Assembly (NCBI GenBank): GCA_018814055.1
Contig: JAHJAL010000051.1
Coordinates: 1 to 8,981, forward strand
Direction: 5' to 3'
DNA: 8,981 bases
DNA from: Patescibacteria group bacterium
Lineage (GTDB): Bacteria; Patescibacteriota; JAHJAL01
The translations under genes were made by a program, and so were the position numbers. Position 1 is the stretch's first letter; each line of letters starts with the position of its first letter. Below the pieces are notes generated by a model that ran no database searches, had not been told where the DNA came from, and saw nothing but the letters and a program-made list of their open reading frames with translations. Positions 1,363 through 3,355 of the stretch are shown piece after piece.

Positions 1363-2907
1363 ATGACCAAGACACTCGACAAATCAAAAATAATCGCCAA
1401 ACTAAAAAACCAATTCGCCAAAATCGACGACTTATCATCTGCCGAAAAAGTCGGCCGCGTCATGGAAATTGGTGACGGCATCGCTATCATTTCCGGACTC
1501 GACGAAGTGATGTCCCAGGAAATCGTCGAATTTTCCAACGGCGAATTTGGGGTGGCTTTAAACCTCAATGAAGATACCGTTGGAGCGGTGATTATGGGCA
1601 AGTATGAGGATATCAAAGAAGGTGATGAAGTAAAAAGCACCGGACGTATTCTCTCAATTCCCGTTGACGACTCCATTGTCGGCCGAGTAGTTGACCCGCT
1701 TGGCAAAGTACTAGACGGCGGTGATGAGATCAAGACCAAAACTTTTTATCCCATCGAAAAAATTGCCCCCGGTGTTATCACCCGGCACGAAGTCAATCAA
1801 CCAGTCCAAACCGGTATCGTCGCCATCGATTCCATCATCCCCATCGGTCGCGGGCAACGTGAGCTAATCATCGGCGACCGCCAAACCGGCAAAACGGCCC
1901 TGGCCATCGATACCATCATCAATCAGAAGGGTCAAGATATGATTTGTATCTACGTCGCCATCGGCCAGAAAAAATCCAAAATCGCTCAAATTATCGAAAA
2001 ACTCAAATCCCACGGCGCCATGGATTACACCACCGTCGTGCTAGCCGGTGCCTCCGAATCAGCTGCGCTTAGTTATATCGCTCCGTATTCCGGTTGTGCT
2101 ATCGGTGAGTATTTCATGGATCAAGGCAAAGACGTCTTGGTAATCTATGACGACCTTTCCAAGCATGCTGTCGCTTATCGGCAAATATCATTACTACTTC
2201 GCCGACCACCCGGACGTGAAGCTTATCCCGGTGATGTTTTCTACCTACATTCCAGATTATTGGAACGTTCCGCCAAGTTAAACCAAGATTATGGCGGTGG
2301 CTCTATCACTGCCTTACCCATTATCGAAACCCAGGCAGGTGATATCTCAGCTTACATCCCAACCAATGTTATATCCATCACTGACGGTCAAATATTTCTC
2401 GAATCTGATCTTTTCTACAAAGGGATCCGACCAGCCCTAAACATTGGCTTGTCCGTCTCCCGCGTTGGCTCCAAAGCGCAAATCAAGGCCATGAAAAAAG
2501 TTGCCGGAAAACTCAAACTTAGTTTAGCTCAATTTCGTGAACTAGAAGCTTTTGCCCAATTTGGATCTGACTTGGATGAAGATACCAAACAAGCCATCGA
2601 ACTCGGTCGCCGCATTACCGAAATCCTCAAGCAGCCACAATATTCACCACTCCCTGTCGCCAAACAAGTTGCTATCCTTTATGCTGCCAACAACGGTTAT
2701 CTCAATGATATTGCCGTCACCAACATCAAACGCTTCCAAAACGAATTCAATTCCTACCTCGATTCCGAACCCTCCGGTTTCCTCAAAGATTTAGACGAGA
2801 AAAAAGAACTCACCGAAGAAGTCGAAAAAAAACTCAAAGAAGCGATCGAAACCTTCAAATCGAGCATTGATTATGTGGAGAAAGAGGAAAAGGATGATAG
2901 GAAATAG
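1363..2907 (+). CDS. atpA: F-type ATP synthase subunit alpha
   Basis: A 514-aa non-catalytic nucleotide-binding subunit of F1, nearly the same length as E. coli alpha (513). Visible motifs in order are the N-terminal beta-barrel with GRVMEIGDGIAIISGL (31-46), Walker A GDRQTGKT (171-178), Walker B LVIYDDLSKHA (259-269), LLLRRPPGREAYPGDVFYLHSRLLERSA, and SVSRVGS (365-371) with the arginine finger at Arg367. An upstream in-frame TTG at 1324 would add 13 residues, but those are encoded by a tandem 9-mer (ATTTCAAAT twice, 1333-1350). The ATG at 1363 gives the family length, so I chose it. No Shine-Dalgarno is visible. The C-terminus is Lys/Glu-rich, and the last codons (GAT AGG AAA TAG) lie within the repeat arm flanking the next gene, so the present C-terminus may have been set by that insertion. 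Confidence 0.97.
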   Translation: MTKTLDKSKIIAKLKNQFAKIDDLSSAEKVGRVMEIGDGIAIISGLDEVMSQEIVEFSNGEFGVALNLNEDTVGAVIMGKYEDIKEGDEVKSTGRILSIPVDDSIVGRVVDPLGKVLDGGDEIKTKTFYPIEKIAPGVITRHEVNQPVQTGIVAIDSIIPIGRGQRELIIGDRQTGKTALAIDTIINQKGQDMICIYVAIGQKKSKIAQIIEKLKSHGAMDYTTVVLAGASESAALSYIAPYSGCAIGEYFMDQGKDVLVIYDDLSKHAVAYRQISLLLRRPPGREAYPGDVFYLHSRLLERSAKLNQDYGGGSITALPIIETQAGDISAYIPTNVISITDGQIFLESDLFYKGIRPALNIGLSVSRVGSKAQIKAMKKVAGKLKLSLAQFRELEAFAQFGSDLDEDTKQAIELGRRITEILKQPQYSPLPVAKQVAILYAANNGYLNDIAVTNIKRFQNEFNSYLDSEPSGFLKDLDEKKELTEEVEKKLKEAIETFKSSIDYVEKEEKDDRK

Positions 2908-2925
2908 GAGAATAGGTAAATAGGA
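2900..2925 (+). repeat. Left arm of inverted repeat enclosing the four-helix-bundle gene
   Basis: This purine-rich arm, with GGAAATAGGAGAATAGG as its core, overlaps the stop codon of atpA. Its reverse complement matches 3315-3340 over 26 nt with two single-base indels, including 14 consecutive identical bases. Read as RNA, the arms would pair into a long stem around the 389 nt holding the whole 2938-3306 gene. Bases 2896-2916 are also exactly complementary to 288-308 in the atpE-atpF spacer. Confidence 0.8.
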
Positions 2926-2937
2926 AAAAGGGACTGG

Positions 2938-3306
2938 ATGAAAAATATTAGATCATATAGAGATTTGTTAGTGTGGAAGAAATCGATGAAATTGGTAATA
3001 GCGATTTATAGAATGACAAAATATTTTCCGAAATCTGAAATATATGGCCTGACATCACAAATAAGGAGATGCGCAGTATCTATACCATCAAATATCGCCG
3101 AAGGACGCTCCAGAGGATCAACCAAAGAATTCAAAAAATTTATCCAAATATCCTTTGGTTCCGGCGCCGAACTCGAAACCCAACTTCAAATCGCCCAATA
3201 CTTAAAGTACGGTCAAATAAAACATTATAGTTATATCAATAAACTATTAAGCGAAATCATGAAAATGCTAAATTCTTTAATACTCTCACTTAAACCATAT
3301 TGTTAA
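2938..3306 (+). CDS. Four-helix-bundle protein (23S rRNA intervening-sequence family)
   Basis: This 122-aa protein is not an ATP synthase subunit. The hallmarks are YRDLLVWKKSMKLVIAIYRM (residues 7-26), FPKSEIYGLTSQIRRCAVSI (30-49), PSNIAEGRSRGSTKEFKKFI (50-69) and a hydrophobic C-terminal helix, fitting the TIGR02436-type four-helix bundle. Members occur in intervening sequences of 23S rRNA genes and are structurally related to the Avd accessory protein of diversity-generating retroelements. The molecular role of the free-standing forms is unknown. It splits atpA from atpG in an otherwise canonical operon and is enclosed by complementary arms (2900-2925 and 3315-3340). The gene is visibly more A/T-rich than atpA, especially its first ~130 nt. 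A weak purine stretch AAAAAGGG ends 7 nt before the ATG, the only Shine-Dalgarno-like sequence in the window. Insertion into the operon is inferred; the family call is strong. Confidence 0.92.
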   Translation: MKNIRSYRDLLVWKKSMKLVIAIYRMTKYFPKSEIYGLTSQIRRCAVSIPSNIAEGRSRGSTKEFKKFIQISFGSGAELETQLQIAQYLKYGQIKHYSYINKLLSEIMKMLNSLILSLKPYC

Positions 3307-3314
3307 ATCTATTA

Positions 3315-3340
3315 TCCTATTTACCTATCTCCTATTTTCC
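3315..3340 (+). repeat. Right arm of inverted repeat enclosing the four-helix-bundle gene
   Basis: The pyrimidine arm begins TCCTATTTACCTATCTCC and is complementary to 2900-2925 with two one-base indels. It begins 8 nt after the four-helix-bundle stop and ends 15 nt before the atpG start. Its ~7-nt CCTATTT periodicity matches the tract at 285-312, in the same orientation as that copy. Confidence 0.8.
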
Positions 3341-3355
3341 TTTATAAGTTATTGT

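Follow-up and report, generated by a model that had tools for sequence, protein, structure and literature searches.

The window, that is, the whole stretch of 8,981 nucleotides analysed here from a Patescibacteria group bacterium, carries an ATP synthase operon in the order atpE-F-H-A-insert-G-D-C, the last gene of which, judging by its position, is presumably atpC. The upstream neighbour of the insert is atpA (TIGR00962, 816 bits) and the downstream neighbour is atpG (TIGR01146, 298 bits). The insert itself is a unit of 445 nt (2899 to 3343) in which a small gene lies between two repetitive arms. The features of the locus are as follows:

1366..2907, plus strand: atpA (ATP synthase alpha), from a profile match; its stop codon lies within the left arm
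2899..2928, plus strand: left arm, short tandem repeats that pair with the right arm, core 2900-2925, from repeats and fold
2925..2932, plus strand: possible ribosome-binding site, A/G-rich AAAAAGGG, 5 nt before the start codon, a putative assignment made by eye
2938..3306, plus strand: PF05635 gene, 122 aa, from the HMM match and predicted structure
3312..3343, plus strand: right arm, repeating the left arm in inverted form, with its core at 3315-3339, from repeats and fold
3356..4273, plus strand: atpG (ATP synthase gamma), from a profile match
288..308, minus strand: gene-less arm sequence between atpE and atpF, whose 21 nt match 2896-2916 in reverse orientation without a mismatch

The first-pass annotation had described complementary arms at 2900-2925 and 3315-3340 with two single-base indels, and the same gapped match was recovered as the best one (AGG-AAATAGGAGAATAGGTAAATAGGAAAA / AGGAAAATAGGAG-ATAGGTAAATAGGATAA). 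Its score of 22.5 was reached by none of 2000 dinucleotide shuffles, the maxima of which were 20.5 for the intergenic pieces and 16.0 for the 240-nt flanks. In the predicted RNA stem, two stretches of the left arm, 2900-2911 and 2913-2925, pair with 3328-3339 and 3315-3327, respectively, giving 25 bp with one bulged base; the fold of 2880-3350 has an energy of -94.1 kcal/mol, and the arm-arm pairing probability is 0.84 on average. Both arms are internally repeated: AATAGG recurs every 8 nt in the left arm, and CCTATT is spaced by 15 nt (8+7) in the right. The stop codon of atpA, TAG at 2905-2907, falls within the first of these repeat tracts. No Rfam family matched above its gathering score within the window.

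The ORF at 2938-3306 had been placed in the family of 23S rRNA intervening sequences, an assignment confirmed by matches to PF05635 (23S_rRNA_IVP), with 133.5 bits against a cut-off of 33.8, and to TIGR02436, with 129 bits against 24; the usual annotation of the family is "four helix bundle protein" or "S23 ribosomal" protein. The AlphaFold model of the 122-aa protein is a four-helix bundle (pLDDT 95.1) and superimposes on Xcc0516 (2gsc) with TM scores of 0.92/0.96, in agreement with the fold originally proposed; BT_0352 (2rld) also matches the model. In 12 aligned sequences Q41, S48, N52, E55, S75 and E78 are the invariant polar residues, and R44, R59 and K63 are nearly invariant; to our knowledge, these residues match no known catalytic motif. 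Together with its PF05635 gene, the pair of arms makes the unit a heptad-armed four-helix element of the sort with 8/7-nt repeats. In the host genome (925 kb, 82% complete), a search for the further copies that the first-pass annotation had envisaged matched the family gene once only (E <= 0.001) and revealed a single gene-less arm copy in the same operon: the segment 288..308 is the sole exact match, besides the left arm, to the pattern GGAAATAGG N(0-6) AATAGG.

The closest known counterpart is the intervening sequence of 23S rRNA. In Coxiella, as described in PMC4990558, the 23S insert is 428 nt long and contains an S23p gene, tandem heptamers (GACAGAT) before that gene and a 28-bp terminal stem that is cut by RNase III in vitro. 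The window's unit resembles it in its PF05635/S23p gene, in its length (445 nt), in its predicted stem of 25 bp and in having 8/7-nt repeats in place of heptamers. Inserts with this ORF are also reported, in PMC11270868, from 16S and 23S genes of CPR bacteria. Unlike the rRNA inserts, the window's unit lies between atpA and atpG, outside any rRNA gene, and its arm sequence is different. A mobile role for the intervening-sequence ORF was reportedly proposed in a paper of 1993.

The atpA-atpG junction was compared with that of relatives. The nearest of them mostly lack the gene, and none is close enough to provide a clean empty site, the closest AtpG matches in named genomes being at most 49% identical (titled Kuenenbacteria, Buchananbacteria, Parcubacteria, Falkowbacteria and similar, with one bin titled Lysobacteraceae). 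No family gene was detected at the 29 atpG loci of the same-phylum panel (L034-L062; atpA beside atpG in 27) or at 78 of 80 atpG loci in named genomes, in 22 of which the gene arrangement was inspected. The pattern that the first-pass annotation had named as speaking against its reading, with the gene at this place but no arms in all relatives, is absent, since most have no gene here. The two remaining loci of the 80 are L067 (titled Falkowbacteria), the only one with a family gene between atpA and atpG, and L079, with a family gene between atpF and atpH. The L067 gene is 39% identical to that of the window and has another tandem repeat on its two sides (AATTAAAT / AATAAAAT); because of both differences, it is likely an independent arrival. 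Moreover, the atpA-atpG gap of L075 contains a hairpin of tandem repeats without a gene, and that of L040 contains a cupin gene enclosed by heptad arms.

A census of the host and 58 other genomes of the same phylum gave 130 family matches in 36 of the 59, with at most 11 per genome. The loci of 110 matches were fetched (30 + 80 loci), the 20 omitted being the weakest, and L067 and L079 were added. Control comparisons covered 108 genes and a flank-swap comparison covered 110 for which flanks were long enough; the latter included L067 and L079, and the former left out two genes with masked bases and did not use L067 and L079 as control loci. Inverted arms scoring at least 14 were found around 73 of the 108 family genes, the other 35 scoring lower, as against 17 of 216 control genes (48 loci) and 2 of 32 neighbour genes in the same loci. 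When flanks were swapped among the family genes themselves, 75 of 110 true pairs exceeded the 95th percentile, 42 of them the 99th and 7 the maximum, one of these 7 being a masked-base artefact; this excess is smaller because the arms of different elements resemble one another. Direct repeats around the family genes showed no enrichment like that of the inverted repeats. The flanks are periodic at 7 and 14 nt, and a weaker period of 7 is also seen downstream of control genes. The analysis of repeat spacing used 136 loci, with six near-identical copies set aside along with those loci whose flanks were short or masked; 7 was the best lag in 79 of 96 left arms of at least 18 nt (shuffled: mean 13.5, maximum 26), and 8 was the best in 12. 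That heptads might serve to supply stops independent of frame, 7 not being a multiple of 3, was considered and rejected as a general explanation: all three frames are stopped in 37 of 100 left arms, and none in 9.

The association was re-examined with the arm cut-off fixed in advance. A wider list covers 286 genomes of the phylum, 160 of them with a family match, and the held-out set comprised its 39 top-scoring loci from new genomes, a non-random choice in which a second copy from one genome (G246) was omitted. Arms were present around 28 of the 39 family genes, as against 1 of the 101 other genes that lie on the fetched stretches (Fisher p = 2e-19), and the best lag was 7 in 22 of the 28. 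In other genomes the arms of family members differ in sequence and share the same build. Unrelated flanks around other family members of the host genome, which the first-pass annotation had named as counting against its reading, did not turn up, that genome having no other member. Similar arms are also found around some other genes (the 17 controls) or around no gene (L259, L075), and a second protein family as the usual cargo was considered and rejected, the ORF in the gap of L080 having no Pfam match and that in L040 being the cupin.

Family genes are strongly co-directional with their surroundings. Relative to both neighbours, 89 of 110 genes are oriented with them, 2 against, and 19 are mixed or one-sided; the corresponding numbers in the held-out set are 27, 2 and 10 of 39. 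Since a stem of inverted arms forms either way, this bias suggests that the gene must be read from the host transcript. The neighbours are functionally unrelated to one another and include cas, nrd, tra and integrase genes. The family protein itself, judged from substitution rates, is under purifying selection where this is measurable: dN/dS is 0.04-0.20 in 7 of 12 family pairs, and dS is saturated in the remaining 5.

The two arms of an element change in concert. When the proteins of two elements are 40-75% identical, the similarity between their arms is 0.22-0.35, whereas the left and right arms of one element are 0.62-0.69 similar, a value inflated by the choice of elements with paired arms; arms are mostly common to both elements only at a protein identity of at least 75% (5 pairs). 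For instance, by eye, one of the pair L245 and L248 has GGGAAAA/GGGAAGA units in both arms and the other has GGGAACA in both. Such paired turnover suggests either that one arm is copied from the other or that selection for pairing is strong.

Insertion polymorphism was seen on plasmids. Family matches occur in 32 plasmid records, mostly cyanobacterial, and in none of the phage records; 18 loci were found in IMG/VR, with arms in 9 of the 12 non-redundant ones with usable flanks. Of 15 plasmid elements fetched (L241-L255), 11 have arms scoring at least 14 within 140-150 nt and 14 within 240 nt, often as near-perfect heptads such as TAGGGAG, AACAGGG or CAGGAGT. The arm-gene-arm build is present in several phyla. 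In one Nostoc operon, three plasmids (L252, L261, L262) share one element in one gap, L251 has a different element in the next gap, within a stop/start overlap, and L260 and L263 have neither. Further filled sites face empty ones in plasmid stretches that are 85-95% identical outside the insert: L248 and L264 against L257 and L258; L250 against L265 and L266; L249 against L267 and L269, a case in which the upstream gene seems to be cut short and given its stop by the insert; and L241, antisense between nrdB and nrdA, against L268. These filled and empty sites are an insertion polymorphism of the arm-gene-arm package. At the place where L248 has its element, L259 has a gene-less pair of similar arms. 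Clean empty sites were also sought for L079 and L242 and rejected, as the sister loci (L077 and L256, respectively) have another repeat element instead.

Copies in different hosts match no further than arm, gene and arm. The 81% similarity of L249 and L252 starts 58 nt upstream of the protein model and stops 38 nt downstream of it, and the 71% similarity of L245 and L248 is likewise limited to the unit. No consistent target-site duplication was seen by eye in the filled/empty pairs; an apparent duplication at L252 was discarded, because its letters recur at the end of L249, an element inserted elsewhere, and it therefore seems to be part of the element. Plasmid-borne and same-phylum genes are intermixed in the gene tree, with 8 label changes of which at least 3 are forced, in a tree of 110 retained columns with many open forks. 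Overall, the earlier proposal of a unit that moves with its own gene is supported through relatives, by arm enrichment, element-limited similarity and filled and empty sites, and is more weakly supported at the window's own site.

Two other kinds of known system share some of these features. REP/REPIN-RAYT systems and MITEs consist of short inverted repeats scattered in intergenic DNA, with a one-gene partner and gene-less derivatives. The present elements differ from them in that their arms are tandem heptads varying from element to element and that the host genome (82% complete) has no match to a Y1 transposase. Avd of diversity-generating retroelements (DGRs) resembles the window's protein in fold (4dwl, TM 0.75/0.85, Foldseek E 0.011; DGR complex 8ubb, TM 0.74/0.82, E 0.0079; both weak matches) and, distantly, in sequence; the resemblance of PF05635 to Avd is pointed out in PMC10053308. 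Unlike in such retroelements, the protein scores below the cut-off of the Avd HMMs (29.7 vs 40 and 32.4 vs 80 bits), and RVT_1 has no match in the 82% complete host genome. Across the 59 genomes, RVT_1 occurs in 13 of 36 with a family gene and 2 of 23 without (p = 0.03), and Y1 in 20 of 36 and 4 of 23 (p = 0.006). As an obligatory partner, each was rejected, being commoner alongside the gene yet inconsistent across genomes.

These observations establish the anatomy of the unit, the specificity of the arms for one gene family, its placement and, in relatives, insertion polymorphism. Gene and arms are thus quite probably a single unit of about 450 bp that belongs to a widespread family, likely a minimal mobile element of operon gaps that is likely expressed from the host transcript. 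In the atpA-atpG messenger, the arms would pair into the 25-bp stem with the gene in its loop, as in an rRNA intervening sequence, and RNase III may cut this stem and so free the insert. The host messenger would also serve for translation of the protein, which likely binds the arms of its own element and may aid spread or make insertion tolerable. The arms look as if re-copied from each other, a pattern compatible with one strand being copied by fold-back in movement or repair. Among the points against this reading, an enzyme of movement is neither known nor was found in the searches for RVT_1 and Y1, and the authors of PMC4990558 regard S23p as probably not produced in vivo, ascribing more importance to the RNA part.

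It is conceivable, though unlikely, that only the arms are mobile, that an unrelated host transposase (e.g., a Y1/REP-type tyrosine enzyme) moves them and that the four-helix gene is just one kind of cargo. Paired arms without a gene in L259, at a position that a known element occupies elsewhere, and in the L075 gap between atpA and atpG are consistent with this, as are the heptad arms around the cupin gene of L040 and the higher frequency of Y1 alongside the gene. However, the latter correlation may mirror a general load of mobile DNA, Y1 has no match in the host genome or in three others, one of them with 11 copies of the family gene (G021; the others are G025 and G043), and the held-out test ties the arms strongly to one gene family. 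Movement via RNA appears distinctly improbable; here a reverse transcriptase would copy a sense-strand insert off the host transcript, and the protein would play the part of Avd. The likeness to Avd in fold and its weak HMM matches, the co-directional placement and the association with RVT_1 would fit such a route; nevertheless, RVT_1 is absent from 23 of the 36 genomes with the gene, several of the reverse transcriptase matches adjoin weak family matches that by eye resemble true Avd genes, co-direction is equally explained by a need for expression, and the L241 element opposes its operon.

That the insert is instead a non-mobile device, useful to the host, for mRNA processing or stability that splits atpA from atpG is very unlikely. 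The stem sits exactly between two operon genes with the atpA stop inside an arm, and purifying selection on family members would suit a useful function. However, a family gene was detected at none of the 29 panel atpG loci and at this junction in 1 of the 80 in named genomes, family members lie beside unrelated genes (cas, nrd, tra, integrase), and sites are found both filled and empty. An ordinary small gene next to a chance hairpin has nothing in its favour beyond AT-rich intergenic DNA; it is hardly credible given the 0 of 2000 shuffles and the held-out counts (28/39 vs 1/101), and it is already contradicted by the census.

Viewed as a mobile element of operon gaps, the unit has implications for other repeats. 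Heptameric repeats of Xanthomonas and Nostoc, often intergenic and with no function assigned, are described in PMC4692102, the main text of which does not contain the terms S23 and four helix bundle. According to the same source, Xanthomonas has 70-75 convergent pairs that form potential stems, most sites being common to both genomes, and Nostoc has few pairs and none of its repeat on plasmids. These repeats share units of about 7 nt with the present elements and differ in that here the pair encloses a gene. No paper in the open-licence literature was found to connect heptad arms with this gene family outside rRNA, or to report insertion polymorphism of the family. The heptad-armed four-helix elements of protein operons look as though they generalise the rRNA intervening sequence in a way not described before; the rRNA insert, in turn, looks like one special form of a broader mobile element whose usual setting is the protein operon. 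A more far-reaching possibility, which we put forward tentatively and consider doubtful, is that of a new self-spreading class, about 450 bp long, in which a 120-residue four-helix protein acts on its own heptad arms across operons of many phyla, with rRNA intervening sequences and unexplained heptanucleotide repeats as special cases or footprints. Its likelihood is lowered by the few Nostoc pairs, the absence of the Nostoc repeat from plasmids and the mostly shared Xanthomonas sites, as given in PMC4692102.

The interpretation brings together a protein family of obscure function, the unexplained heptameric repeats of bacteria and the question of how rRNA intervening sequences arose, and it predicts a roughly 450-bp system suitable for tests in a laboratory strain. 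It also bears on annotation by gene neighbourhood: the domain is named in a figure legend of a CRISPR survey (PMC10910872). Family genes are found inside cas, nrd and atp operons, likely because elements land there, and the neighbourhood of such genes in these operons would therefore be a poor guide to functional links.

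Heptad arms of the CAGACAT type also surround a cupin gene in the atpA-atpG gap of another genome's ATP synthase locus (L040), the same junction that holds the window's element, and this gene is possibly other cargo of the same arms. Tandem-repeat hairpins without a gene are found in the atpA-atpG gap of a further ATP synthase locus (L075, 4905-5001) and in the plasmid locus L259 (1433-1694), where plasmid locus L248 has its element; both may be non-autonomous derivatives.

Other repeats are present in the atp operon of the window. Immediately 5' of atpF, another heptad array with the units AGTAATT/AGTAATC (311-346) adjoins the gene-less arm copy, and a different repeat is located downstream:

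4310-4460, atpG-atpD gap: MITE-like inverted repeat, ATTGTCATCCCAGGCCGG ... CCGGTCTGGGATGACAAT

An element resembling this repeat, TGTCATCCTGAAC, is located in the atpF-atpH gap of L077, whereas the same gap in its sister L079 contains a four-helix gene. Further along the window, two adjacent genes (6408-6839 and 7031-7879) match Pro_CA_2 (putative carbonic anhydrase), the second below the cut-off, and short palindromes around GAGACGCCATGCCATGGCGTCTC and AGAGACGTAGCACCGCTACGTCTCT (6910-6935 and 7940-7970) are, by eye, REP-like.

In eight same-phylum panel genomes (G012, G022, G032, G037, G041, G046, G050, and G052), reverse transcriptase (RVT_1) matches lie approx. 2 kb or less from weak PF05635 matches, which probably represent genuine Avd genes from diversity-generating retroelements. 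Family genes also occur in the CRISPR operons of cyanobacterial plasmids (L242, L244, and L253), next to cas6/cas4 in two and cas10/cmr3 in one, and could be misread there as CRISPR accessory genes.
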